Below, in pieces: positions 2,666 through 24,284 of a stretch of 64,000 nt of DNA (positions are counted from its first letter, which is position 1; each line of letters opens with the position of its first letter). A model generated the notes under the pieces. It had not been told where the DNA came from, did no database searches, and worked only from the letters and a program-made list of their open reading frames with translations. Made by a program: the position numbers and the translations under genes. Source of the stretch: a virus; the IMG/VR virus record IMGVR_UViG_3300047994_000054, positions 1 to 64,000 of that record. The stretch is one strand, 5' to 3'.

Positions 2666-3478
2666 TCAGGCTCCTTTCGATCGGTCAACGATGTCGGTGG
2701 GCGCGGATGGACCCGGTGCGCCGTAGGTGTATCGCAGCAGTTGGACGATGAGACCCGTCAGCCCGTCGGGTGCGTCCCTGTTGGTGATGAGTTTCGGGTC
2801 GATCAGGTCCGGCGAGCCGGCCATCATCTCGCAGAGCCCGGACTGACCGATGGTCGTCAGTGCCGCTGTCAGCGCTGACGTTCGAGCGATCTCGCGCTCC
2901 TGTGGCGGCACGATCGCGAGCATCTGCGTTAACGGACCGCCGTCCCGCATGGCCTCGCGCAGAGCGCGCACCTTCTCGCCTTGAAGCCGCGAGCCGTCAG
3001 CGTCGTAGACCGACTGCGTCTTCTTCCAGACGATGGTTTCGTCGTCCCCTTCGCCCACCCACTCATAGGGAGTGAGGTGCAGTTCGGCCGCTCCGTCGCG
3101 ATGCACGACCGTCGTGGTGATCGCTTCGGTGAGCAGTCCGCCGACGTTACCTGCCTCCCAGTACGCTTGGAACGGTGCGATCTCGTCGTACTGCGCGCGG
3201 GTCATCGGAGCGTTGTCCGGGTTGCCCATGTAGGTGTCGGACGAGTAACTGATGGCGTCAGCCTCGGTCGCGTCGGCCAGCAGCGCCGCCACGCCCTCGG
3301 ATGCCTTGGGCATGTTGCCGTTGAGCACCAACGAGATGAGGAACTCGTCGTCCTTGAAGAACGTGATCTGCTGCTCGAAGTGACCGTGGGTCTCGATCAA
3401 CTCCTTGGCCATGCCGTGCTCGAACTCCGCGATCGGCACAACCTTGCCGTTGTCGAACTTGATCTTCGTGCTGGCCAT
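2666..3478 (-). CDS. Hypothetical 270-residue phage protein
   Basis: ATG 3478 overlaps the RuvB-like gene's stop by one base. The N-terminus is beta-rich (STKIKFDNGKVVPIAEF), the centre is acidic with aromatic residues, and the C-terminal third is helical (SALTAALTTIGQSGLC). No catalytic motif or membrane segment is seen. Its fixed place directly downstream of the RuvB-like ATPase suggests a partner in the same process, but that is inference. Confidence 0.75.
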   Translation of the reverse strand: MASTKIKFDNGKVVPIAEFEHGMAKELIETHGHFEQQITFFKDDEFLISLVLNGNMPKASEGVAALLADATEADAISYSSDTYMGNPDNAPMTRAQYDEIAPFQAYWEAGNVGGLLTEAITTTVVHRDGAAELHLTPYEWVGEGDDETIVWKKTQSVYDADGSRLQGEKVRALREAMRDGGPLTQMLAIVPPQEREIARTSALTAALTTIGQSGLCEMMAGSPDLIDPKLITNRDAPDGLTGLIVQLLRYTYGAPGPSAPTDIVDRSKGA

Positions 3479-4494
3479 CAGTCCTCCTTCTCGTCCATGA
3501 GCTTCGCCGCGCGCTCGCGACCCAGCCCGGTCAGCTCACGGCCACGATTGGTGACGGTGATGAAGCCGCGCTGCACAAGGTCGCGCTCGGTGTGCTTGAG
3601 TACGCTCTCGCCCAGGACGGCGAGCATCGTGGGCAGCGACGCGACGCCGCCGTAGCCGTAGAGCAGCATCAGGTAGTCCTGGGCCAGTCTGGTCAGGCCG
3701 TCGTCGGAGAATCCGGTCCAGTGCTGCGCTCGAGCGACCGGATCGGCGCAGGTGGGATCGGCGTCCTGGATGTCGCGAACGGTCGCCAGCAGCCGTCCCA
3801 TCACGCGCGGGTTGTAGTCGGCAGCGGCCGCGATCCGGTGGTACTGCGGCTCGGCCAGGGTCATCCGCAGCCGGCTGGCGGTGACATGAGCGATCTGCAC
3901 GGCTTCCTCGACCGTGTAGGGCTCCAGGATTGGCTGGATCGGGAACCTGTCGACGATGGTCTCGGGCAGCAGCTGCGCATCCGTGGTCGCACCGATGACG
4001 GTGATCTTCGGAATCTCGACGGTGCCACCGGGCAGCACGAGCACGCCGTCCTGGAGCAGCTGCAACAGCCACTCGGCGTTCTTCTTGCCGGACGCCACCA
4101 TGCGGTGGATCTCGTCCAGGAACAGCACGTCGCGGTCCTGCATGGCCTCAAGCACCGGACGTGCCTTCTCGGCCGTGACGACCCCACCGAGCTCGGCGTA
4201 GCCCACCTTGAGCGTGTGCGCCGTGAGCTTGCCCAGCGACGTCTTGCCGATGCCGGGCTGGCCGCTGGCGAGCAGCATGTGCGGCAACGCCTCGCCGCGC
4301 TTCGCTGCTGCCGTGATGGCGGTCAGGATCTGCATGCGTGCGGTGTTCTGACCGACGAACTGAGTGAAGTCGTGCGGGTAGGGGCCGTCGCCGATGATGT
4401 CGTCGCCGCGCTTGATCTGGCCAGGAAGCACGTTGGCGTTCTGGCGGTTGCCCTGGCTCATCATGCGGCGAGCGAGCGTGTGTGCGTGGCTCAT
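3478..4494 (-). CDS. RuvB-like AAA+ ATPase with C-terminal winged helix
   Basis: A 338-residue protein, close to the usual RuvB length. ATG 4494 makes an ATGA overlap. Motifs by residue: DFTQFVGQ at 42-49, Walker A GQPGIGKT at 78-85, Walker B VLFLDEIHRM at 123-132, sensor 1 GATTD at 168-172 and the DRF arginine finger at 182-184. The last 80 residues resemble the RuvB winged-helix domain (LGESVLKHTERDLVQRGFI). RuvB drives branch migration of Holliday junctions as a hexameric ring, normally loaded by RuvA; no RuvA is seen here. A RusA resolvase is encoded at 25494. It could alternatively act as another AAA+ remodeller. Confidence 0.85.
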   Translation of the reverse strand: MSHAHTLARRMMSQGNRQNANVLPGQIKRGDDIIGDGPYPHDFTQFVGQNTARMQILTAITAAAKRGEALPHMLLASGQPGIGKTSLGKLTAHTLKVGYAELGGVVTAEKARPVLEAMQDRDVLFLDEIHRMVASGKKNAEWLLQLLQDGVLVLPGGTVEIPKITVIGATTDAQLLPETIVDRFPIQPILEPYTVEEAVQIAHVTASRLRMTLAEPQYHRIAAAADYNPRVMGRLLATVRDIQDADPTCADPVARAQHWTGFSDDGLTRLAQDYLMLLYGYGGVASLPTMLAVLGESVLKHTERDLVQRGFITVTNRGRELTGLGRERAAKLMDEKED

Positions 4495-4784
4495 GAGCCG
4501 TTCCAGAGGTCTTCGAGATCGCCCAGGTCGTCCGGCGTGTCGGTGGACTCGCCAGCCATCACCTCGACGACGTTGCGCGGCAGCGGGTCGCGGACGGTCA
4601 CGCACAGGTCGTCGGGCAGCTCGAGGTGGAGTGCCTCGACCAACGACTCAGCGAGCTTCCGCCACTCGCTGCGCAGGACCTCCATCGGGAAGCCCTGCTG
4701 GATGAACAGGGTGTTGGCAGCGAGTCCCATCGCCAGTCGCTCGATGGGCGACAGGTCGAACTCGCTCGGGTCTGGTCGGGTCAT
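4491..4784 (-). CDS. Small protein upstream of RuvB-like ATPase
   Basis: A 97-residue protein with ATGA overlaps at both ends (ATG 4784). It has a helical middle (LSPIERLAMGLAANTLFIQQGF) and a strongly acidic tail (ESTDTPDDLGDLEDLW). Co-translation with the ATPase suggests a cofactor or loader, which is unproven. No family recognised. Confidence 0.75.
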   Translation of the reverse strand: MTRPDPSEFDLSPIERLAMGLAANTLFIQQGFPMEVLRSEWRKLAESLVEALHLELPDDLCVTVRDPLPRNVVEVMAGESTDTPDDLGDLEDLWNGS

Positions 4785-5005
4785 TCGGTCACACCTCCTC
4801 CTGACGGCCTTACGCCGTACAGGACCAGCGAGTCGCGCAGCCGGTCCATCGTCTGGGTTGTAGCCGATCGGACGCGGTGCGCGCCGACCTGCTTGAGCAC
4901 GCGATTGCACGGCTCATGGCGCAGCCACCCGTTCTCGCTGCGGTAGGTGCTCGGATCGTGGCTGGTCTCGCAGTAGTTCGGGTCGTTCTCGGTAGGTCTG
5001 GGCAT
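4781..5005 (-). CDS. Hypothetical 74-residue protein
   Basis: ATG 5005 follows GAGGAGG at 5 bases; a GTG one codon upstream is possible. It contains two Cys and two His (NYCETSH, RHEPCNR) and a basic C-terminal half (HRVRSATTQTMDRLRDSL). It is part of the WGR / RuvB-like operon. Function unknown. Confidence 0.7.
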   Translation of the reverse strand: MPRPTENDPNYCETSHDPSTYRSENGWLRHEPCNRVLKQVGAHRVRSATTQTMDRLRDSLVLYGVRPSGGGVTE

Positions 5006-5016
5006 CACGCCTCCTC

Positions 5017-5577
5017 TCAGGCGTTGATCTTGAAGCGAAGCAGCATGTCGACAACCTCGGCCGCGCCTTCGGCCCGCATCACCTGTGAACGGAGGTGGTC
5101 CAACTGCTCGATCAGGCTCTTGCGCATGACGACGGCCTGGGTCACCTCGCTGGGAGCGCCCATCGCCAGGCGCCGGCAGGTGTCGATGTCGCTGAACAGG
5201 ACGGCGACCAGGTCGACGGGACCGTCGGAGTCATCCAGCTGCGAACGGTCGTTCTCGGGATCGAACTGTCGCTGCTCGAGCGCTGCCATCACGTCCATCG
5301 GGCAGTAGCCGAATGAGTTGCCGTCGTTGAACGACGGGGCGTAGCCCTTGGCCTGCTTGGACGCGATCTTGGCGTCGACCACCTGCGTCGCGAGGTCCTT
5401 CGAAGTGCCGAAGCGCTCCGGCTTGCTCCACTGACCCTTCGATCCGACGCGGCCCCAGTGGAACATGACCGTGTACGTGTCGGTCGGCAGATCGTGGATC
5501 GTCCACGCCTGGTAGTACTTGTTGGAGTTGACAGTCGGGTCGACGAGTACGAGTTCCCGTAGCGTCGCTGACTTCAT
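5017..5577 (-). CDS. WGR-domain protein
   Basis: A 186-residue protein. Residues 10-75 fit the WGR fold: NKYYQAWTI, then FHWGRVGSKGQW with the signature WGR at 41-43, and a helix ending KQAKGY. WGR domains bind nucleic acid, for example in PARP-type proteins and in bacterial MolR/MoxR-VWA neighbourhoods. The rest is helical with no catalytic motif. It overlaps the coiled-coil gene upstream as ATGA. A GCGAAC-GGTC-GTTCTC box lies in the coding region at 5241-5256. Its presence just downstream of the RavA/VWA trio fits the known association of WGR with AAA+-VWA systems, though a joint role is inference. Confidence 0.85.
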   Translation of the reverse strand: MKSATLRELVLVDPTVNSNKYYQAWTIHDLPTDTYTVMFHWGRVGSKGQWSKPERFGTSKDLATQVVDAKIASKQAKGYAPSFNDGNSFGYCPMDVMAALEQRQFDPENDRSQLDDSDGPVDLVAVLFSDIDTCRRLAMGAPSEVTQAVVMRKSLIEQLDHLRSQVMRAEGAAEVVDMLLRFKINA

Positions 5578-5882
5578 GTCGCCTCCTTTCCGATGGCATT
5601 GGAGAGCGGGTGCACGTCGCGCAACTCCCAGTACCCCTGACGCAGTGATGCGGCGATGTACGTCAGGTCGTCGGTCAGGCGGCTGATGTCCTGTCCGAGT
5701 GCGCTCTTGTAGCCACGCAGCTCAGCCTTGGAGAGGACGTCTTCCTTGACCTCCTGCGCCAGCGTGTCGGCGTCGTTGGCAATGCGGCGCATGGTGACGA
5801 GCGCCTCCTCAGCGAGATGCTCGACCTTCCGCACGAGTGCGTGTACTTCGTCGACGACGTCGGCCATGGTGTCGGTAGTCAC
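5574..5882 (-). CDS. Coiled-coil protein
   Basis: A 102-residue, almost wholly helical protein (VDEVHALVRKVEHLAEEALV) with ATGA overlaps on both sides. No Cys, membrane segment or enzyme motif. The small helical shape suggests an oligomerising partner of a neighbouring protein. Function not recognised. Confidence 0.75.
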   Translation of the reverse strand: MTTDTMADVVDEVHALVRKVEHLAEEALVTMRRIANDADTLAQEVKEDVLSKAELRGYKSALGQDISRLTDDLTYIAASLRQGYWELRDVHPLSNAIGKEAT

Positions 5883-6901
5883 TTCTCCTCCTGTCGGATG
5901 AAGTCCGCTTGCAGCGTGTTGAGAGCGGCGAGCGCGTACTCTGCGGCGCCGGCCGACATCTCCTGGTTCACGTGCAGCGCACGCCCGTACTCCATCGCCT
6001 TGCGCATGGTGCGCTGGTACTGGTCGGTGACCTTGGCCAGAGCGGCTGAGGTGATGGTGTCGCGCGTCGAGCGCAGGTGAGTGATCTGCTGGACGACGTT
6101 CTGGAAGTCCTCGACCGCCTCGCGTTCCCAGGCAGCGATCACGCTCTCGCGCAGCCGAGCCATCTCCGGGATCGGCATGACCTCGAGGTTGCAGCCGGTC
6201 AGCGTGCGCACGAACTCCTGGAGTGCGAACAGCTCGGACTCACGCGAGCGGTGCACGAAGTACACGCCGTCTTTCATCTTGATGGCGTTGAGGAACAGCA
6301 GGTACTCGCGCACGCACTTGCGCACCCGGTCGCCATCGACGAAGTCGTGCAGCCGGTCGAACTCGGCGTACCAGAGCTTGATGAGCTCCTCGATGTGCTT
6401 CTGCTCGCCGGGCTGGATCTTCGTGGTGTCGACGGACGCGCGTAGCCGGTGACTGTTGCGCTCGATCTTGCGCGTCACCTTGTCGGGCTTGCCCTTGGAG
6501 AAGTCCAGGTTGACGATCGGCTGGTAGGACAGCCGGCGCTGCTGCGAGTCGCGCACCTCGCGGACCATCTGCCGGTAGACGGTGTCACCGTTGCGGGACA
6601 CCTCCCGCACGGCCATGACCTCGCCGACCGTGGGACCGATGCCGAGCACGGGATTGCCGGCGTGGATGGTGTAGGGCTTGGCGATGCCGACGATCCGGCT
6701 ACACGCCTTCTCGTACGCCGAGAATGCCGTCGTCTCCTGCGGCAGCACCGCACTGTCGAGCATCAGCCGGTCGAACGTCTTGGTCATGTCGTCGAGGTTG
6801 TGCGGCTGGTCGGAGATGGTGAACCACACGATGTGGCCCAGGACCGCGTCGTCGGGCAGGGTGCCCTGACTGTCGAGGATCTTCCGAACGTCAGACTTCA
6901 T
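5879..6901 (-). CDS. Conserved-looking 340-residue phage protein
   Basis: ATG 6901 is chosen over upstream frame extension because it follows GAGAGGAGG at 5 bases. The N-terminal region (LGHIVWFTISDQPHNLDDMTKTFDRL) resembles a winged-helix-like start, the middle is rich in Arg/Lys helices, and a long helical C-terminus follows. I believe related proteins of unknown function occur in other phages, but cannot name the family with certainty. It is the first gene of a transcript that begins downstream of the 6949 operator. Confidence 0.75.
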   Translation of the reverse strand: MKSDVRKILDSQGTLPDDAVLGHIVWFTISDQPHNLDDMTKTFDRLMLDSAVLPQETTAFSAYEKACSRIVGIAKPYTIHAGNPVLGIGPTVGEVMAVREVSRNGDTVYRQMVREVRDSQQRRLSYQPIVNLDFSKGKPDKVTRKIERNSHRLRASVDTTKIQPGEQKHIEELIKLWYAEFDRLHDFVDGDRVRKCVREYLLFLNAIKMKDGVYFVHRSRESELFALQEFVRTLTGCNLEVMPIPEMARLRESVIAAWEREAVEDFQNVVQQITHLRSTRDTITSAALAKVTDQYQRTMRKAMEYGRALHVNQEMSAGAAEYALAALNTLQADFIRQEEK

Positions 6902-6929
6902 GTCGCCTCCTCTCGTTGAGGGACTGTGT

Positions 6930-6964
6930 TTCGCGGGTGTTGTGAACTGTGTACGATCGTACAC
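6930..6964 (-). promoter_or_regulatory. Perfect 16-bp palindromic operator plus leader motif
   Basis: GTGTACGATCGTACAC at 6949-6964 is a perfect palindrome 47 bases upstream of ATG 6901. Related 16-mers occur at 12103, 15803, 20551 and 23963, always between genes. The leader also contains CACCCGCGAA on the minus strand (6939-6930), repeated in the leaders of the Ku gene and the RavA gene. It is probably a repressor site at an early promoter; no standard -35 box is evident, so the exact promoter is not placed. Confidence 0.65.
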
Positions 6965-6967
6965 GAT

Positions 6968-7117
6968 CTAGGGTGCGTGCGCCTCTAGCCAGGTATCCGC
7001 CTCCTCAAGGCTGGCGAACTTCGGCGGACGCGGGCGGCCCAGCGCAGCTCGATAGGCATCGAGCTCCTCCTGGGTTAGCCAGTGCAGGTCAATCGCGGGA
7101 ATCAGGGTGTCGGCCAT
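6968..7117 (-). CDS. Small 49-residue protein after the VWA gene
   Basis: ATG 7117 follows the VWA stop immediately. The frame encodes MADTLIPAIDLHWLTQEELD and ends LEEADTWLEAHAP just before the operator. It is Trp- and Glu-rich with no Cys. Likely the last gene of the RavA / VWA operon; function unknown. Confidence 0.65.
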   Translation of the reverse strand: MADTLIPAIDLHWLTQEELDAYRAALGRPRPPKFASLEEADTWLEAHAP

Positions 7118-8731
7118 TCACACGGTGCGGAACAGGTCCGCCATCGACTGGGGGTCGGACTCCAGCATGTCGGTGATCGAACGGACGTTGTCGCTCACGG
7201 ACTCAAGCGCGCCGCCGTACGAGCAGCCGATCGCGATGCCGAAGCAGCGGATGCTGGTCTTGTCCTTCACGCGGTTCCACTCGTGCATGAAGTCCTCGTC
7301 CATCGACCCGTACTCGTCATCGGTCATGAACACGACGTCTGCCTTGCCCTTGCTGGAGTTGTCGTAGGACTCCTCGATCAGCTTGAGTGCAGCGCGCAGC
7401 GGCTCCTCATAGGAGGTGCCACCACCGTAGAAGTGCTCGGTCATGGTGAGCACGCCGTCGAGCGTCGTCTCGCCCTTGAGGAACGACTGCGTCCATACCT
7501 GCCGGCTGGACGAGAAGCCGATGTAGTGGAAGTCGCGACCGCGCTGGCGAGCCTGGTCGCACATGGCCAGCGCCAGAGCCTTGGACCACGCCTCGCGTGA
7601 ACCGCCCATGACGTCCTCGCAGCCCATCGAGCCGGACTCATCGACGACGCAGACAACCGGACCCTGGCCGAGGTTCTCCTTGCCACGCAGGTCGTAGCAG
7701 AGGATCTCGCGGTTGGCGTAGCGCATCCAGAAGTCAGCCTCGAGCTCGGGACTGGCCAGGTTGATCATCTCGGCCGGGATCATGCGCGTCAGGTCGTCGT
7801 CGAGCTTCACGCCCACCACCTCGTCGGTGGCGTGCATGATGCGCTTGCGGGACTCAGCCTGCTGGATCATCTTGAACTGGCCCAGCAGCTTGTAGAACTT
7901 CGAGAGCCGGTTGTTGCGCAGCCGCTCGGCCAGCTGGCGACGCTCCTCGAAGTCCATCCGCTGGAGCGCGCCGTCCTCCATGCCGAACGCCTGACACAGA
8001 GCCTGCTCCTGCTCCAGCTCCTCGCCGGCCTGCTTGGCAGCAGTCTTGACGGACTGCTTGACGCCCTGTGCTGCGAGCTCGGCCGCAGCTTGCGCCGCGT
8101 TCTGGGCAGCCTGAGCGGCGCCCTGTGCCTGCTGCGCCTTGTCGAGCGCCTGCTGGAGTGCGCCACCTGCGTTGCCCTGACCGGGATCGCCAGGCTGGCC
8201 GTTCGGGTCCGGTGACGGACCGATCCCGAATCCCTCGATGATCTGCTTGACGTCGTCGTCGGCCTCCTTCGCCTTGTCCTGGGCCTGCTGAGCCTCCTCG
8301 GCGCGCTTCTTGGCCTCGACCATCGCGTCCTGTGCCTGACGCAGCGCCGACTCCATGCCGAGCAGCGCCATCGCGGAGCCGTACTCGTCACCACGGGTGT
8401 TGGCACGCAGCTGGCGGAACTGCGTCGTCTCCGTGAGTTCCTTGATCATCGTGCGGTTGGGCACGTGCGTCGGCTTCATCTCGCGCTCGTCGTGCAGTTG
8501 CGGGTCGGCCTTGAGCAGCGACATGAAGAAGTCCTGCATGAACGGCTCGACGTAGTCGTGCTTGCGCGACAGGTCGGTGATCAGGGTGTTCATGCCCGGC
8601 ACCTTGTGCACGACGTCGTCGTAGTACGCCTTGTCGAAGCGGTCGTGGTCGACGACGTACTCCTGTGTCGGCTTGGGGATGTCACCGAGCAGCGACTTGC
8701 CGCGCTCGATCAGATTGTCGAGGAAACTCAT
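7118..8731 (-). CDS. VWA-domain protein (ViaA/CoxE-like partner of AAA+ ATPase)
   Basis: A 537-residue protein. Residues 1-130 are helical, 130-245 are a Gln/Ala-rich coiled coil with a Gly/Pro linker, and from about 355 there is a von Willebrand A domain: VVCVVDESGSMG gives the MIDAS DxSxS at 364-368, followed by GGGTSYEEPL and VFMTDDEYG with the further MIDAS Thr and Asp. In RavA-ViaA and MoxR-VWA systems the VWA protein binds metal and adapts or activates the AAA+ ring on clients. It overlaps the membrane protein gene as ATGA and lies two genes after the RavA-like ATPase. Function in the phage is unknown. Confidence 0.88.
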   Translation of the reverse strand: MSFLDNLIERGKSLLGDIPKPTQEYVVDHDRFDKAYYDDVVHKVPGMNTLITDLSRKHDYVEPFMQDFFMSLLKADPQLHDEREMKPTHVPNRTMIKELTETTQFRQLRANTRGDEYGSAMALLGMESALRQAQDAMVEAKKRAEEAQQAQDKAKEADDDVKQIIEGFGIGPSPDPNGQPGDPGQGNAGGALQQALDKAQQAQGAAQAAQNAAQAAAELAAQGVKQSVKTAAKQAGEELEQEQALCQAFGMEDGALQRMDFEERRQLAERLRNNRLSKFYKLLGQFKMIQQAESRKRIMHATDEVVGVKLDDDLTRMIPAEMINLASPELEADFWMRYANREILCYDLRGKENLGQGPVVCVVDESGSMGCEDVMGGSREAWSKALALAMCDQARQRGRDFHYIGFSSSRQVWTQSFLKGETTLDGVLTMTEHFYGGGTSYEEPLRAALKLIEESYDNSSKGKADVVFMTDDEYGSMDEDFMHEWNRVKDKTSIRCFGIAIGCSYGGALESVSDNVRSITDMLESDPQSMADLFRTV

Positions 8732-8946
8732 GCGTCCCTACCTCTCTCGATGCCTTCACGGACAAGTGCGACGAGCTTCTGCGACTCGGTCACCAGTCGA
8801 ATCATCCTGTCGATCTCCAGCGCCTGCTGTGCGCAGATCTTGGTCAACTGCTTGTTCTGCTTGAGCACGTGACGTGTTATCGCGGCGGAGATCAGCATCA
8901 GACCGCCGAGGATGCCGATCTCGAGATAGGCCAGTGCGGTGCTCAT
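8728..8946 (-). CDS. Single-pass membrane protein between RavA-like and VWA genes
   Basis: A 72-residue protein with one hydrophobic helix (YLEIGILGGLMLISAAI, residues 7-23) followed by a charged coiled coil (QQALEIDRMIRLVTESQKLV). It has ATGA overlaps on both sides, so it is translated with the ATPase and VWA genes. It may tether the complex to the membrane. E. coli RavA-ViaA has no such third gene, which makes this arrangement notable. Confidence 0.8.
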   Translation of the reverse strand: MSTALAYLEIGILGGLMLISAAITRHVLKQNKQLTKICAQQALEIDRMIRLVTESQKLVALVREGIERGRDA

Positions 8947-10172
8947 CGGAGTATCACGTCCTCAGCCGGCATGTCGAGGCAGTCGGTGTAGACGGACGTC
9001 CGCACCACCATGAGCCGACTGGCGACCTCGTCGAGCCGAGCGGTCGAACGACCTGCGGCCTTGCACTCCTGCATCGCCTGGGCGAGCTCGGAGACCAGCA
9101 CCTTGAGCTTCTGGTTAGCCTCGGATCCGTACGAGGCCCGAACCTCGAGCGACTGACCCTTACGGTCCCGGATGTTACGTGCGATGTCATCGGCCGTATC
9201 CAGGATCGCCATCGCCTTCTCGGCGACCGGGTTGGACAGCGACAGTGTGATGCGCTCGACCGCCGTGATCTGGGTCGGAACCTCCCAGAGGCAGTAGCGC
9301 AGCACGTGCAGGTCGTCCTCCTTGACCTCGGTGCGGCCGGCGAAGAACGCGCTCGCCTGGAGCATCCGCACGCAGGTGCGCCAGCGTCGGTCGGACACTG
9401 TGATCTCGGCGTCGGAGCGGAGCGTGTCGCGCAGCTTCATCATGGCCTCGATCGCGTCCACCGGGACGTCGATGGCGGGCACGACGTTGTCGATGACGTC
9501 CTGGAGGTCCAGGAACGGGATCGTGGTCTTGTGCGCGGTCAGCCGCAGGTCGTTGGTGCTGATGGCGGACTGGAGCAGCGCCGCGAAGTTGCCGGACTCC
9601 TGGATGTACTCGACGAGCACACGCACGAGCAGCCGGTCCCACAGCGCCGCAGCGTCCTCGGACTCCTCGACGATGAGCTCGTTGCTGGCAGCGAACGCGG
9701 TGTAGAGCGGCACGTGCTTGGCGGTGCGACCACCGTTGACCTCGTGGTAGAGCCGCTCATTCAGGATCGCGAGCATGTCGTGACCGAGCGTGGGCGACAT
9801 CTTGCCGATCTCGTCCAGGAACGCGAAGTTGGCGGTCGGCAGGAAGCCGTTGATCTTGCGGTGAAAGTCACCCTTGTCCCGCAGCTCGGGCAGGTTGTAG
9901 GGACCGAGGATCGCGGCGTCGGGCCGCGTCTTGGACATGATGGTCTCGAAGTACGTGGCACCGTCGAAGCGACCGACGATCTCGCGGATCATGTCCGACT
10001 TGCCGGTGCCGGGCTGGCCCAGACCGAACCAGTGCTGCTTGGCGAGCACGGCGATCAGCGCGGACTCGATGGCGGACCTGCGCTCCAAGAAGATGCTGGA
10101 GACTTCGTCGAGCACCGAGTTGAGTGCGATGGAGACCGGGTGAGCGGTCGGCGGGAGAGCAGTAACGGTCAT
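8943..10172 (-). CDS. RavA-like MoxR-family AAA+ ATPase
   Basis: A 409-residue protein. ATG 10172 is chosen because conserved sequence begins there and a GAGAGGGG site precedes it. Motifs: LERRSAIESALIAVLA at 29-44, Walker A GQPGTGKS at 52-59, Walker B FAFLDEI at 117-122 region, sensor 1 AASNEL at 161-166, arginine finger region LWDRLLVR at 178-185. The segment VSDRRWRTCVRMLQASAFFA at 259-278 is very like the lid of RavA. MoxR/RavA proteins are hexameric ATPases that remodel clients together with VWA proteins. The gene is first in a three-gene unit with a membrane protein and a VWA protein, and has a GAAC-N4-GTTC box 29 bases upstream. Confidence 0.9.
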   Translation of the reverse strand: MTVTALPPTAHPVSIALNSVLDEVSSIFLERRSAIESALIAVLAKQHWFGLGQPGTGKSDMIREIVGRFDGATYFETIMSKTRPDAAILGPYNLPELRDKGDFHRKINGFLPTANFAFLDEIGKMSPTLGHDMLAILNERLYHEVNGGRTAKHVPLYTAFAASNELIVEESEDAAALWDRLLVRVLVEYIQESGNFAALLQSAISTNDLRLTAHKTTIPFLDLQDVIDNVVPAIDVPVDAIEAMMKLRDTLRSDAEITVSDRRWRTCVRMLQASAFFAGRTEVKEDDLHVLRYCLWEVPTQITAVERITLSLSNPVAEKAMAILDTADDIARNIRDRKGQSLEVRASYGSEANQKLKVLVSELAQAMQECKAAGRSTARLDEVASRLMVVRTSVYTDCLDMPAEDVILR

Positions 10173-10200
10173 GGGCGGCAGCCCCTCTCGTTGAGGTGGT

Positions 10201-10221
10201 GCGAACGAACGTTCGCGGGTG
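10201..10221 (-). promoter_or_regulatory. SOS-type box in the RavA-operon leader
   Basis: GCGAAC-GAAC-GTTCGC at 10201-10216 has perfect outer arms and matches the actinobacterial LexA-box pattern CGAAC-N4-GTTCG. It fills most of the 50-base gap between the ligase stop and the RavA-like gene. The minus-strand motif CACCCGCGAA overlaps it (10221-10212). Predicted to control the RavA/VWA operon; binding protein not known. Confidence 0.65.
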
Positions 10222-10222
10222 G

Positions 10223-11128
10223 TCAGGATCTCGGGACGCTGTCGAGCTGGCTCAGTCTGGCATCCAGCACCGACACGTCTGTACGCAGGCCCTTGTAGCT
10301 CGGGTGCCTGAGCGCGCCTTCCTTCGTGACGTTGAGGATCTCGATCTCGCACACGACGGGTCGGCCGGCGTCGAGCTCGGCCTTGAGCTCGAGACGGGTC
10401 TTGTCGGTGAATCCGGTGCCGACGACGCCGACCCGGACGGGCCTGTTCTGGTCGTCGAGCATGGTGAGGTGCATCCGGCCGAAGTGCGCGGCCTTTCCGC
10501 TACCGAGGTCGTAGCCGGTGCCGATGCACGTGATGCTGGTCTTGCCCTTGTACTTCTGCCAGTCGTGCTGGCGTCCTGCGCGGTACGGGCTCGATTTGCG
10601 CTTGGCGATCACTCCTTCCATGCCCAGGTCAACGACCTGCTGGTAGAACGTGGGGTCGTCTGACCACACGCTGGTGTCGAGGTGCTGGAACGGCTTGAGC
10701 GCGCCGACGGAACTGTCCAGAAACTGCCGGCGCTCCGCCCACGGGTAGCGCTGAATGTCCTGGCCTGCGATCGACAGGACGTCGAACGCGACGTAGGCGA
10801 CCGGGTAGTCCTTGAGGTGACGCGCGACGTCGTGCGGCTTGTTCTGCTTGTCGCGTCGTGCGGTGTCCTGGAACGAACCGCTCTTGGCCACGACCTCGCC
10901 ATCGAGCACGCACGGCGTCGGCAGCGTCTCGAGATCGCGGACGACCTCAGGGAAGCGGTGCGTGACGTTCACGCCGTTGCGGTTGATGAGGGTCACGTTG
11001 CCGCCGGTCTCGACGTAGGCGAGCACGCGCACGCCATCCAGCTTGGTGTCGTAGATCCAGGTGGGACCGAGATCGTTGATCGGTTGCGCGGGCGGCTTGG
11101 CGAGCATCGGCTTGATCAGGTCCACCAT
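10223..11128 (-). CDS. ATP-dependent DNA ligase, LigD-ligase type
   Basis: A 301-residue ligase. The nucleotidyl-transfer motif is DTKLDGVR with Lys29 as the AMP acceptor. Further motifs: INRNG, LDGEVV, FDVLSI, EGVIAKRKSSPYRAGR and a WQKYK basic patch; the C-terminal 100 residues look like an OB fold. It would seal nicks or joined ends in the cytoplasm. The size fits a stand-alone catalytic core plus OB domain, with no polymerase or nuclease domain as in full LigD. ATG 11128 follows GGAGGTG. It lies in one operon with the Ku-like gene, suggesting an end-joining pair. Confidence 0.9.
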   Translation of the reverse strand: MVDLIKPMLAKPPAQPINDLGPTWIYDTKLDGVRVLAYVETGGNVTLINRNGVNVTHRFPEVVRDLETLPTPCVLDGEVVAKSGSFQDTARRDKQNKPHDVARHLKDYPVAYVAFDVLSIAGQDIQRYPWAERRQFLDSSVGALKPFQHLDTSVWSDDPTFYQQVVDLGMEGVIAKRKSSPYRAGRQHDWQKYKGKTSITCIGTGYDLGSGKAAHFGRMHLTMLDDQNRPVRVGVVGTGFTDKTRLELKAELDAGRPVVCEIEILNVTKEGALRHPSYKGLRTDVSVLDARLSQLDSVPRS

Positions 11129-11226
11129 TCATCACCTCCTTCGTCCTTGTCGTCGTCGAACGGCTCACTGGCGAGCGCCTCGTCCAGCCGCCACTGTGCG
11201 TACTCCTCCGCGAGTTCGTCGGTCAT
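11116..11226 (-). CDS. 36-residue acidic peptide between Ku and ligase
   Basis: ATG 11226, preceded by CGGAG, encodes MTDELAEEYAQWRLDEALAS followed by an Asp/Glu-rich end and EWWT. The stop lies 13 bases inside the ligase gene, so translation is coupled. Small acidic proteins with a terminal Trp pair are common in actinophages; function unknown. Confidence 0.65.
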   Translation of the reverse strand: MTDELAEEYAQWRLDEALASEPFDDDKDEGGDEWWT

Positions 11227-11263
11227 ACTCCGAGAGGCTCCTGGTAGCCGGTCACGGTCACGT

Positions 11264-12067
11264 TCACGCGAGCAGCTCGTCGAGCAGATTGCCCAGGTCG
11301 ACAGCGGTTCCGACCTTCGCAGCGGGCGTCGACTTGGTGCGCTCGATCTCGACGCCCTCGACCGACTCCTTGCTGGCCAGCAGGTTCACCAGCGCCTCGC
11401 GGTAGGTGTTGCGGTAGGCATCGGCGTCGAATGGTTCGGTGGTCTTGGCGGCGAGCGCGTCGACCTTCGCCTGATACTCGGGCGCCGGCTCGATGACGTT
11501 GACGTTCGGCGTGGCCTTGACGTCCTCCGGCCACGCCAGCGGCTCCAGCGTGAGCACGCCGTCGAACGTCGACAGCCGGTAGAGACCGGGCTTCGTACGT
11601 GGTGAGTAGACGACGAGCGCAGCGAGCTCGGGATGACGCGTGAGCATGTCCACGATCAGCCCGTACTTGCCCAGCTGCGCTGCACTCGCAGGCTCCAGGT
11701 AGTACGTCGAGCGGTCCTTGCCCGGCAGCGTCGCGCTCTCGACCTCGGCAGCGACGTGCACGGTGGCAGCGAGCATCTGGCCGGTGACCTCCAGCGTCGC
11801 ATCCTGCGCCGACCTCACCTCGTCAGTGGTGACGATCGTGTATGACGTGCCCTGCTTGCTGGCCTTCTGGAGGTACGAGTACTCAACGTCGGATGCGCAC
11901 GACTCGCAGTAGCGCTTCATGCGGATGGGCGTCGGTGCGTGGATGTTGCTGTGCTCGTCGCCGCAGCAGACAGTGACGAGATCCTCGTCGGTCTTGCCCT
12001 GGGCGGTCGTCAGGTTCACGGTGCACGCAAGTCCTGAGACTTGGAGCACGAGATTCTTGGTAGCCAT
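11264..12067 (-). CDS. ku: Ku-like DNA end-binding protein
   Basis: A 267-residue protein of about the usual bacterial Ku length. The C-terminal two thirds carry Ku-like segments: TYYLEPASAAQLGKYGLIVD, LTRHPELAALVVYSPRTKPG, LYRLSTFDGVLTLEPLAWPE. The N-terminal part holds CCGDEHS and RYCESC, reminiscent of the region where Ku reads C..CG.EV. Bacterial Ku forms a ring on broken DNA ends and recruits LigD; mycobacteriophages Omega and Corndog are known to carry Ku. The adjacent ligase strengthens the call. N-terminal similarity is weak, so a distant Ku homologue is meant. It follows the 12103 operator and the CACCCGCGAA leader motif. Confidence 0.75.
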   Translation of the reverse strand: MATKNLVLQVSGLACTVNLTTAQGKTDEDLVTVCCGDEHSNIHAPTPIRMKRYCESCASDVEYSYLQKASKQGTSYTIVTTDEVRSAQDATLEVTGQMLAATVHVAAEVESATLPGKDRSTYYLEPASAAQLGKYGLIVDMLTRHPELAALVVYSPRTKPGLYRLSTFDGVLTLEPLAWPEDVKATPNVNVIEPAPEYQAKVDALAAKTTEPFDADAYRNTYREALVNLLASKESVEGVEIERTKSTPAAKVGTAVDLGNLLDELLA

Positions 12068-12080
12068 GCTTGATCACTCC

Positions 12081-12118
12081 TTCGCGGGTGAGTGTGTTGC
12101 TCGTGGACAATCGTACAC
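12081..12118 (-). promoter_or_regulatory. Operator and leader motif upstream of Ku-like gene
   Basis: GTGGACAATCGTACAC at 12103-12118 is the exact reverse complement of the site at 23963-23978 and close to the perfect palindrome at 6949. Nearer the gene, CACCCGCGAA (minus strand 12090-12081) runs into the GGAG ribosome site. Inferred repressor-controlled early promoter of the Ku / ligase transcript. Confidence 0.65.
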
Positions 12119-12125
12119 GAGAGAA

Positions 12126-12488
12126 CTAGCGGGCGGCGTCGATCAGCGACCGGATGATGCCGAAGCGATCCGGGTCGTCGTTCCGCAACCTGGAGGTGTC
12201 CTCTTGCGTCAGGAGCTTGGTCCAGTCCGTGACGACGCAGAGCATCTCTGCCAGGTTGATGGCAGCCTCACGGTCGCGACACCACAGCGTGATGGCGGCA
12301 TGTCCGGCCGGGTCCATCGTCGGATCGGGTGCAGCCGAACTGACGGTCCACAGGTGGTCGTCGAATCCGTCACCGATCACGCGCCTGTGCACGTACAGGT
12401 CTTCGACCTTCTCGGCACGGATGCGACGTAGGTGCTTGGTGTCGTCGCGCGTGTTGGAGTACGACTGTCGTACCGGGATGATCGGCAT
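12126..12488 (-). CDS. Hypothetical 120-residue protein
   Basis: ATG 12488 follows GGAGGTGAGCC. The N-terminus is basic (SNTRDDTKHLRRIRAEKVEDLY), the centre is beta-rich with HLWTV and AITLWCRDREAAINLAEML, and the C-terminus is helical. It is the last gene of the small-gene operon that starts at 15342. It shares 112 bases with the preceding frame, which is unusual here. Family not recognised. Confidence 0.72.
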   Translation of the reverse strand: MPIIPVRQSYSNTRDDTKHLRRIRAEKVEDLYVHRRVIGDGFDDHLWTVSSAAPDPTMDPAGHAAITLWCRDREAAINLAEMLCVVTDWTKLLTQEDTSRLRNDDPDRFGIIRSLIDAAR

Positions 12489-12796
12489 GGCTCACCTCCC
12501 CAGGCGTGTCGTGCGTTGCTCCGTGGGAGTTGGCAGCGGTAGCAGTACGGCGCGTCGTCCGCACCCTCGAACGCGTGACCACGGTTCTCGCCGTAGCGAG
12601 CCCAGTGCAGCGCAGCAGCGTTCAGTGCGGTGATGACCTCGTATGCGGTCGCGGTGTCGAGCACGCGCTCGGAGCCGACAACCTCGAGCACCCAGATGAG
12701 CCCGCGACCGTTGCTGTGGCAGTAGTACAGCGACACCGGCGCACCTATCTCCTTCGCACGCTCCAGCGCGCGGTGGACGTCAACCCTCGTCGTCAA
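12377..12796 (-). CDS. Small protein with CYRC finger, long 3' overlap
   Basis: About 139 residues from TTG 12796, 8 bases after GGAGG; a GTG three codons earlier is too close to that site. The first 105 residues look like a normal protein (VDVHRALERAKEIGAPVSLYY, then YCYRCQLPRSNARHAWGG). The last 35 residues overlap the next gene and are Arg/Ser/Thr-rich, so the true end may be upstream with a base lost. Function unknown. Confidence 0.6.
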   Translation of the reverse strand: MTTRVDVHRALERAKEIGAPVSLYYCHSNGRGLIWVLEVVGSERVLDTATAYEVITALNAAALHWARYGENRGHAFEGADDAPYCYRCQLPRSNARHAWGGEPCRSSRYDSRTPTRATTPSTYVASVPRRSKTCTCTGA

Positions 12797-12962
12797 ACAG
12801 ACCACCTCCTTCGTTCTCCTCGTCCGCGATGTCGCGCGCGAATGCGTCGAGGCTGGCTTCGCGGCCCTCAGACGCGATGAAGTGCCGCAGGATGGTGGCG
12901 ATCGAGTGGTCGTCCCATCCCTGCGCCTCTGCGATCTCGTCGAAGCGTGCAGCGGCGCTCAC
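12780..12962 (-). CDS. Small helical acidic protein
   Basis: A 60-residue protein. GTG 12962 overlaps the preceding TGA as GTGA. MSAAARFDEIAEAQGWDDHS is followed by a helix and an acidic tail. The tail region also carries the AAGGAGG ribosome site for the next gene. No family recognised. Confidence 0.7.
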   Translation of the reverse strand: MSAAARFDEIAEAQGWDDHSIATILRHFIASEGREASLDAFARDIADEENEGGGLFDDEG

Positions 12963-13144
12963 CACGTCACCTCGATTCCCTGCGCGCGTCGCACGAACTT
13001 CCGCCAGTCCTTGTCGAAGATGACGTAGCTCGCGGACCCGTTTACGCCGGTCTCGTCGTGGGTGAAGTCACGCAACTGCATCAGTGCGTCGAGGACGTTG
13101 CTCGTGCGGCAGAGTCCGAGCTTCCTCAGGATCTTGTCGATCAT
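12959..13144 (-). CDS. Small hypothetical protein
   Basis: A 61-residue protein from ATG 13144 (ATGA overlap). MIDKILRKLGLCRTSNVLDA gives a basic start, followed by a beta-rich half (SASYVIFDKDWRKFVRRAQG). A similar layout is seen in small actinophage proteins of unknown role. Confidence 0.7.
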   Translation of the reverse strand: MIDKILRKLGLCRTSNVLDALMQLRDFTHDETGVNGSASYVIFDKDWRKFVRRAQGIEVTW

Positions 13145-13332
13145 GAGCACTGCACCTGGCCGGCGACGAAGTAGCACGTGCCCGGCGTCACGGGCGCGTA
13201 GGTCGGCGTCGTGTTGTCCGGCCCGTCGACCTGATTGGCCGCACGGCTCGCGTGCAGTGCGATCTGGGCGATCAGGAACACGCCACCGATCACGAGCAGC
13301 ACCGCGACCACGACTCGCATCTCTCTCGTCAT
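13141..13332 (-). CDS. Single-pass membrane or secreted small protein
   Basis: A 63-residue protein with a basic start (MTREMR), a hydrophobic helix (VVVAVLLVIGGVFLIAQIAL, residues 7-26) and a short outer part with two Cys (GTCYFVAGQVQCS), which could form a disulfide. Overlaps on both sides. It could be an anchored periplasmic or superinfection-type protein; no evidence beyond topology. Confidence 0.75.
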   Translation of the reverse strand: MTREMRVVVAVLLVIGGVFLIAQIALHASRAANQVDGPDNTTPTYAPVTPGTCYFVAGQVQCS

Positions 13333-15342: not shown

Positions 15343-15570
15343 GGATTCTCCCTTGTGTGTGAGGCGGTCGCCCGTTGCGATCGCTCGTGAGCGCGCTCTG
15401 ATCGCTCGTGCGATCGCTCGTGGGATCGCTCGTGAACGCGCTCTGTTGCCTTCACCGATAGAGCGGAGACCGTCGCCGGATTCTGCTCAGTCACCCGATC
15501 GGCCGTCACCCGATCGGCCCAACGGCAAACGATCACCCGATTGGCCTATCAAGTCCGACTAGGTGACATC
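15343..15570. repeat. Divergent non-coding region, short-repeat part
   Basis: No gene is seen. It holds GATCGCTCGTG-type repeats (about four imperfect copies, 15378-15435), a partial copy of the hairpin arm AGAGCGGAG..CCGGATTCTG near 15460-15490, and repeated CACCCGATYGGCC units (15493-15546). The leftward operon must start here, so at least one minus-strand promoter is expected. An origin of replication is a further possibility. Confidence 0.55.
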
Positions 15571-15720
15571 GGACCGAAACCGACGGCCCGACGGCCCGGA
15601 CGGCCCGACCCGATCGGTCGGCGTCGCTCCCGTCCGGACCGTTGCGGACCGAAACCGACGGCCCGACGGCCCGGACGGCCCGACCCGATCGGTCGGCGTC
15701 GCTCCCGTCCGGACCGTTGC
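15571..15720. repeat. Two tandem 75-bp repeats
   Basis: Copy 1 (15571-15645) and copy 2 (15646-15720) are identical by eye, starting GGACCGAAACCGACGG and ending CGTCCGGACCGTTGC. Each contains CCGATCGG and several GGCCCGACG units. They lie in the divergent control region between the leftward block and the orphan plus-strand gene. They might serve as iterons, enhancer-type sites or recombination products; they do not encode a plausible protein. Confidence 0.8.
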
Positions 15721-15734
15721 GGTCCGACACCTCT

Positions 15735-15802: not shown

Positions 15803-15818
15803 GTGTACGAACGTGCAC
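15803..15818 (+). promoter_or_regulatory. Operator upstream of orphan plus-strand gene
   Basis: GTGTACGAACGTGCAC matches the GTGTACGA-TCGTACAC family in 13 of 16 positions. It lies between the large hairpin and AAGGGG, 15 bases before ATG 15833. Inferred operator that controls the gene at 15881. Confidence 0.55.
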
Positions 15819-20550: not shown

Positions 20551-20566
20551 GTGGACAATCGGCCAC
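20551..20566 (+). promoter_or_regulatory. Operator-like site upstream of 20615
   Basis: GTGGACAATCGGCCAC differs from the operator at 12103 in 2 of 16 positions and lies between genes, 49 bases before ATG 20615. The flanking GGTGG..CCACC makes a dyad. Inferred operator of the same family. Confidence 0.55.
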
Positions 20567-23898: not shown

Positions 23899-23978
23899 CT
23901 GGCCATTCGTACACGCTATGCGATCATAAGGGCTGGACGACCCGCGAAGTCCACCCTATGATGTGTACGATTGTCCAC
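23899..23978 (+). promoter_or_regulatory. Promoter and operator of the LexA-like gene
   Basis: A sigma-70-type promoter fits: -35 TGGACG (23934-23939), 17-base spacer, -10 TATGAT (23957-23962). Directly downstream lies GTGTACGATTGTCCAC (23963-23978), the reverse complement of the Ku-gene operator. A further half-site TTCGTACAC is at 23906-23914. A protein bound here would block transcription start, which suggests autoregulation by the encoded DNA-binding protein. Confidence 0.7.
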
Positions 23979-24002: not shown

Positions 24003-24284
24003 ATGAGTGTCGCTGAGATCGAGAGCACGCCGCATGAGGCTGCACTTGCCCAGCACAAGCAGTGGCTGCACAAGACGATCCTGCGGTTCATCCACAGGTA
24101 CCTCGAGAAGAACCACTGCGCTCCGTCGTGGGACGAGATCGCGGAGGCTGCTGGGTTCGCCAGCAAGTCCGGCGTCACCCGCCATGTCCAGGAGATGGCT
24201 GAACTCGGACTCATCTACTACCACCCCGGCCGCTACCGCTCGCTCGCGGTGACACCCGCCGGGCTCCAGCTGATCGGCAAGTAG
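24003..24284 (+). CDS. LexA-type DNA-binding domain protein without protease domain
   Basis: A 93-residue protein; ATG 24003 follows TGGAGG. Residues 20-85 match the LexA N-terminal winged helix: HKTILRFIHRYLEKNHCAPS, then WDEIAEAAGFASKSGVTRHV as helix-turn-helix, and LGLIYYHPGRYRSLAV as wing. LexA represses SOS genes by binding GAAC-N4-GTTC boxes in actinobacteria and self-cleaves through a C-terminal Ser-Lys domain; that domain is absent here, so induction by self-cleavage is impossible. It sits behind its own operator. Probable phage repressor. Confidence 0.85.
   Translation: MSVAEIESTPHEAALAQHKQWLHKTILRFIHRYLEKNHCAPSWDEIAEAAGFASKSGVTRHVQEMAELGLIYYHPGRYRSLAVTPAGLQLIGK

Follow-up and report, generated by a model that had tools for sequence, protein, structure and literature searches.

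Motors built from a MoxR-type AAA+ ATPase and a VWA-domain protein are widespread in phages. The locus described here raises the question of which gene product completes such a motor, and which process the motor serves. The window, that is the whole stretch of DNA analysed (64,000 nucleotides), comprises positions 1 to 64,000 of a 70,108 bp IMG/VR record (IMGVR_UViG_3300047994_000054), whose terminase, head and tape-measure genes mark its source as a virus. A sequence-only reading had described positions 7118–10172 as a cluster of a RavA-type AAA+ ATPase, a 72-residue single-pass membrane protein and a VWA protein, and had proposed a membrane-bound remodelling machine with the membrane protein at its core.

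Gene layout and identity of the AAA+ and VWA proteins

The three-gene cluster is present as described, entirely on the minus strand. The AAA+ gene (8943–10172, 409 aa) begins with an ATG at 10172 and stops at 8943–8945. The proposed 4-base overlaps were found as ATGA at both junctions, between the AAA+ gene and the gene of the 72-aa membrane protein (8728–8946), and between the latter and the VWA gene (7118–8731, 537 aa). The 49-residue gene reported to follow (6968–7117, minus strand) starts directly at the VWA stop codon (TGAATG). Third-position GC is 0.90 in the AAA+ and VWA genes, 0.77 in the membrane protein gene and 0.76 in the 49-aa gene, and these GC values by codon position are consistent with all four being coding. 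While the three genes and the 49-aa gene stood, the continuation of the cluster had been overlooked: it extends to a 340-aa protein of the DUF6744 family (5879–6901, minus strand), whose gene has its own ribosome-binding site, AGGAGG, ahead of the start at 6901. A perfect 16-bp palindrome, GTGTACGATCGTACAC (6949–6964), lies 48 bp upstream of this start. It has four matches when up to three mismatches are allowed, against 0.23 expected, and resembles a putative operator- or promoter-like element.

The set is embedded in a block of DNA-repair genes, all on the minus strand, whereas the structural genes (terminase, head and tape-measure) occupy the plus strand. An ATP-dependent DNA ligase (10223–11128; PF01068, E = 2e-33) lies directly upstream of the AAA+ gene, preceded by a Ku-like DNA-end-binding protein (11264–12067; PF02735, E = 2.4e-07; phrog_4873, E = 1e-16). 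Downstream of DUF6744 come a 102-aa ORF (5574–5882) and a WGR-domain protein (5017–5577; PF05406, E = 2.9e-11), the latter adjacent here but not a conserved companion of the module. Beyond them lies a RuvB homologue (3478–4605; RuvB_N, E = 2e-23), which matches solved RuvB structures over residues 71–359 (E = 1e-27).

The best Pfam match of the AAA+ protein is PF20030 (bpMoxR; E = 1.3e-33), accompanied by AAA_lid_8 (E = 3.5e-21) and AAA_5, and among solved structures it is closest to E. coli RavA (3nbx; E = 3.7e-42, residues 21–306). Against the NCBIfam RavA equivalog it scores 169 bits, below the cut-off of 681. The RavA match stops at about residue 297–330; the C-terminal part is unmatched, and no LARA domain was found in the protein. 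The VWA protein matches only VWA families in Pfam (VWA_2, E = 8e-07). Its C-terminal half is ViaA-like, scoring 61 bits over residues 240–501 against the ViaA equivalog, short of the cut-off of 500.

Across 56 loci carrying the triad of AAA+, VWA and DUF6744 genes, G52, the Walker A lysine K58, the Walker B glutamate E121, the sensor residue N164 and the arginines R180 and R262 are invariant in the AAA+ protein. Of the MIDAS residues of the VWA protein, D364 and S366 never vary, S368 and D471 are kept in 55 of the 56 loci, and T439 in 51. The earlier identification of a RavA-type ATPase with all motifs and a VWA partner with intact MIDAS is thus confirmed as a RavA/MoxR-type core with intact catalytic residues and a near-invariant MIDAS, and the Walker and MIDAS residues are also retained in relatives. 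As far as sequence can tell, the pair works like RavA–ViaA yet is distinct from it.

DUF6744 as the conserved third gene

The DUF6744 protein of the window is a clear family member (PF20529, E = 1.1e-21; 77.6 bits against a curated cut-off of 27). Its linkage to the AAA+–VWA pair was assessed from both sides. Among 80 viral contigs selected by their AAA+ gene, 42 have DUF6744 within 8 kb of it, the window's own virus being included in the sample and one of the positives. Dereplication at 50% AAA+ identity leaves 35 viral clusters, and in 25 of these DUF6744 sits no more than 8 kb from the pair. The gene order is permuted across loci (AAA-VWA-DUF, DUF-AAA-VWA, VWA-AAA-DUF and AAA-DUF-VWA). From the DUF6744 side, AAA+ and VWA genes adjoin it in 12 of 13 informative places in Actinomycetota genomes, a count that leaves out two short hits and a locus situated at the end of its contig (L199), and that takes the AAA+ for the place in genome G001 from locus L156. 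The exception (L196) is a DUF6744 fragment with no AAA+ or VWA gene nearby. The two queries are independent, but their samples overlap, several places being contigs in both. DUF6744 is rare in genomes of Actinomycetota (4 of 297 at class, 8 of 347 at order and 5 of 397 at phylum level).

The same association occurs on plasmids. All 11 plasmid records carrying DUF6744 have an AAA+ gene within a few kilobases, and the VWA gene is also present in the six records checked for it (6/6). On plasmids of Streptomyces, Nocardia and Rubrobacter the AAA+ and VWA genes are followed by one whose annotation is DUF6744 or hypothetical; the order on an Alicyclobacillus plasmid is DUF6744, AAA+, VWA. The set is likewise found in Moorella phage MTATph1. 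Distance matrices of the AAA+, VWA and DUF6744 proteins correlate (r = 0.73, 0.58 and 0.69; Mantel p = 0.0005), in a comparison set among the module's three proteins alone, without a control gene.

DUF6744 is missing from 10 of the 35 viral clusters and from most Streptomyces chromosomal AAA+–VWA pairs, which argues that the pair can work without it. No conserved third gene was found beside the Streptomyces chromosomal pairs. Where contigs lacking DUF6744 beside AAA+ were searched for it elsewhere, 0 of 24 records carried it, and it was not found within the 49 kb examined of Gordonia phage Chidiebere, whose AAA+ is annotated as CobS.

The membrane protein behaves differently. Its best 19-residue hydrophobic segment (residues 5–23; Kyte–Doolittle 1.97) makes one transmembrane helix plausible. 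A homologue of its gene was found in 0 of 172 related loci, save contigs of the same virus (100% identical), and in none of 13 further DUF6744 loci. The small gene is thus missing from homologous loci, which is the outcome that the sequence-only reading had itself named as refuting its model. The same-virus contigs are 100% identical to the window across 16 kb and are therefore uninformative on selection. The 49-aa ORF, the 102-aa ORF and the WGR protein similarly have no convincing homologues among the 172 loci besides the same-virus contigs, and both ORFs occur only in the virus under study. Elsewhere in these loci, the AAA+ and VWA genes mostly overlap by 4 bases or sit less than about 100 bases apart. 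The proposal that the 72-aa protein is a third core subunit finds no support, its gene being absent from some 170 loci in which AAA+ and VWA normally abut directly; at best the protein may be an optional membrane tether found in this phage alone, encoded by an insertion between the two genes. The conserved third gene across viruses and plasmids is well supported to be DUF6744, not the membrane protein.

A sister clade of 26 viral contigs is without DUF6744 and always has a gene for a 402-aa protein before AAA+; most of these contigs have a DNA polymerase A gene nearby. The 402-aa protein was considered as a divergent DUF6744 and rejected, since the profile comparison was not significant and its predicted fold (pLDDT 79.6) instead matches DUF3150 proteins (E = 1e-6); fold searches with it and with DUF6744 gave no top match in common. 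With a DUF3150-like protein in third place in this clade, the third partner of the AAA+–VWA pair seems to vary between DUF6744 and a DUF3150-like protein.

An AlphaFold model of DUF6744 (40 sequences; pLDDT 90.7, pTM 0.84) predicts an alpha/beta region at the N-terminus and a long helical region at the C-terminus. A fold search of the model against the PDB gave nothing at E ≤ 0.001. It matches four viral predicted structures at E = 1e-13 to 1e-16, one of them from halovirus HVTV-1, whose gp25 is also DUF6744 by sequence (Pfam, E = 3e-19; HMM, E = 1.6e-29). DUF6744 is thus found in tailed viruses of both bacteria and archaea.

The process served by the module

The nearest phage by its AAA+ is L016, an 83,979 bp viral contig, with identities of 45% for AAA+, 39% for VWA and 26% for DUF6744. 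It encodes Ku (4616–5422), ligase (6426–7361), AAA+ (7992–9152), VWA (9152–10612), a 169-aa ORF, DUF6744 (11266–12240) and a RuvB homologue (12237–13265) that overlaps DUF6744 by 4 bases; the membrane protein gene is absent. The window has the order Ku, ligase, AAA+, membrane protein, VWA, 49-aa ORF, DUF6744, 102-aa ORF, WGR protein and, further on, RuvB. The matching orders indicate that the block is collinear save for small insertions, the membrane protein gene among them. A second contig (L057) also has RuvB after DUF6744. Ten other triad loci combine a RecA-like AAA_24 ATPase with a PD-(D/E)XK nuclease, seven have an SNF2 helicase nearby, and the sliding clamp gene dnaN accompanies two, on the Alicyclobacillus and Rubrobacter plasmids. 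Some other triad plasmids carry conjugation genes.

The reading we favour, at about even confidence and doubt, is that the phage encodes a three-part, ATP-driven remodeller of a MoxR/RavA-type AAA+, a VWA protein and DUF6744, which serves virus and plasmid DNA replication and repair. The AAA+ would form a hexameric motor with the VWA protein as its co-chaperone. Homology, intact active sites and gene linkage are what the sequences themselves show. Judging from characterised relatives, the VWA protein would dock on the ATPase ring, and the motor may twist or pull it and so remodel a bound partner, in the manner of NorQD, for which PMC13036017 gives a solved working model of a motor that twists and stretches its VWA partner. 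Genome context points to DUF6744 as a dedicated adaptor or client of this motor, and the gene neighbourhood suggests that it may couple the motor to the replication, recombination and end-joining of virus DNA. The machine might load, activate or clear a DNA-processing complex, for instance with the neighbouring RuvB homologue or, elsewhere, the sliding clamp. DNA replication and repair as the process served is the weakest step of this scheme: replication genes are common in the corresponding part of any phage genome, and the neighbourhood is therefore weak evidence of function.

A membrane-bound machine of the AAA+, 72-aa and VWA proteins, with a membrane or respiratory complex of the host as its target, would fit the ATGA overlaps, which imply translational coupling, the plausible transmembrane helix, and the action of E. 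coli RavA–ViaA at the inner membrane (PMC9489729). We consider it very improbable, given a membrane protein gene without homologue in about 170 loci and a collinear relative in which AAA+ and VWA abut directly. The locus holds no evidence for the respiratory target or the disarming of a host complex suggested earlier; its surroundings are DNA repair and replication genes. The motor could instead be a virion assembly chaperone that shapes a structural protein, with DUF6744 as client or virion component. The presence of DUF6744 in tailed viruses of two domains and the assignment of the interacting ATV proteins p618 and p892 to tail development (PMC4124505) speak for this. It is nevertheless unlikely, as plasmids also carry the triad, in some cases next to dnaN and in others along with conjugation genes, and here it sits in the repair arm on the strand opposite to the structural genes.

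A role in counter-defence or in conflict between elements, where the module would inactivate a host defence complex or shield its plasmid or phage from competitors, we regard as distinctly unlikely. MoxR–vWA pairs joined by a third component do lie at the core of conflict systems (PMC7159879), and DUF6744 is mostly on mobile elements and rare in chromosomes (the 4 of 297 genomes above). Against this, the VWA protein has no effector domain, the third component differs from VMAP, iSTAND, FtsH and propeller proteins, and a comparison of every component with PADLOC defence families gave no real match, just weak partial ones (E = 4e-4 or worse). Scarcely credible here is the role of a cobaltochelatase-like CobST pair in raising cobalamin synthesis, as published for the AAA+–VWA pair of the virus family of HVTV-1 (PMC8651126), even though archaeal viruses with CobS/CobT-annotated genes include HVTV-1 relatives that carry DUF6744. 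The AAA+ of the window is RavA-like with AAA_lid_8 and, in sequence comparison, not recognisably related to HVTV-1 gp59. A search for CobN (PF02514) that was positive in 5 of 14 control genomes found none in the record of the window or in 18 triad records; a host may still carry one. The lack of CobN and the different AAA+ subfamily make the cobalamin explanation unlikely for this phage. HVTV-1 itself encodes the VWA protein gp57 and the AAA+ gp59 about 15 kb from DUF6744 gp25, a distance that counts against the favoured reading, and DUF6744 and AAA+ of the HVTV-1 type occur in the identical eight halovirus records, all of one lineage. The cobalamin reading is therefore worth re-testing there, although these findings do not disprove it.

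A wider version of the DNA replication and repair remodeller is tentative and, taken whole, somewhat doubtful. It would make AAA+–VWA–DUF6744 an unrecognised ATP-driven machine with which viruses and plasmids act on complexes of DNA replication or repair, with DUF6744 and DUF3150-like proteins as interchangeable client adaptors, and some viral pairs annotated CobS/CobT, haloviruses included, would be of the same kind and not vitamin B12 enzymes.

Comparison with known systems

AAA+–VWA pairs in phages are already known, phage MoxR pairs having been noted since 2007 (PMC2147016). DUF6744, as a partner or by name, was not found in the literature searched, a scope that left aside subscription papers and preprints. 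The conserved third gene offers a concrete candidate client for phage MoxR–VWA motors, the linkage gives the first functional handle on DUF6744, and it puts in question whether similar viral pairs serve cobalamin synthesis.

With E. coli RavA–ViaA, the phage pair shares the AAA+ core (aligned over residues 21–306), the ViaA-like C-terminal half of the VWA protein and the logic of a two-gene operon. It differs in lacking the LARA domain, which binds LdcI, in scoring far under the RavA and ViaA cut-offs, and in adding DUF6744. NorQ–NorD of denitrifying bacteria, likened here by description and not by sequence, also combines a MoxR AAA+ with a VWA partner, but serves metal insertion into nitric oxide reductase and has no DUF6744.

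Among viral systems, Bacillus phage 0305phi8-36 encodes a MoxR ATPase and a second MoxR-chaperone subunit (orf66/orf63; PMC2147016), and in Acidianus two-tailed virus the MoxR protein p618 interacts with the VWA protein p892 (PMC4124505). Like the phage module, both viruses encode a MoxR ATPase together with a partner protein, which in ATV is a VWA protein. A DUF6744 partner is unreported for either, 0305phi8-36 being compared by its published description only, and the ATV pair is assigned to tail development. Haloviruses and further tailed viruses have CobS/CobT pairs (PMC8651126) that likewise combine AAA+ and VWA, and HVTV-1 and its relatives encode DUF6744 too; these pairs differ in their AAA+ subfamily and in that DUF6744 is unlinked there, and the window's record has no CobN. 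The MoxR–vWA ternary conflict systems (PMC7159879) share the composition of MoxR, vWA and a third component, and PF20030 (bpMoxR) is the best Pfam match of the AAA+ protein. The window has no beta-propeller on its VWA protein and no VMAP, iSTAND, FtsH or effector domains; the third component of the phage module is, instead, DUF6744.

A 16-base near-palindrome and a tandem repeat

The 16-base near-palindrome GTGTACGATTGTCCAC occurs with the same sequence at two sites in the window, and a search allowing up to three mismatches (≤3) returned 7 matches, against 0.41 expected. Sites of this type lie at 6949–6964, 12103–12118 (minus strand), 15803–15818, 20551–20566 (minus strand) and 23963–23978 (plus strand). 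Three genes, Ku, DUF6744 and the plus-strand gene at 24003, have the element 25–48 bp ahead of their starts. It resembles a phage operator or promoter element.

A separate repeat at 15570–15731 consists of two tandem copies of a ~75 bp unit (~98% identity between them) and contains many short palindromes; it lies near the point where the two transcription arms meet.

Neighbouring genes

Genes for a Ku-like protein and an ATP-dependent ligase are adjacent (10223–12067), forming a possible phage end-joining pair, and the same two are present in L016, the nearest relative phage by AAA+. A WGR-domain protein (5017–5577) adjoins the AAA+–VWA–DUF6744 module; no homologue of it was found in the related loci.

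Related loci with and without DUF6744

Halovirus HVTV-1 gp25 (L176 9815–10966), annotated as hypothetical, is a DUF6744 protein, and the range of the family takes in viruses of both archaea and bacteria. In the DUF6744-less sister clade, a 402-aa family, whose predicted fold matches DUF3150, immediately precedes AAA+ in every member (L066 6690–7898 and 25 relatives).

A reverse transcriptase is encoded a little downstream of the AAA+–VWA pair in nine viral contigs, all lacking DUF6744: L033 (11369–12184; RVT_1, E = 4e-20) and its relatives L036, L038, L045, L046, L049, L051, L052 and L053. This proximity recalls the already published retroelement-diversified MoxR–vWA systems (PMC10907252).
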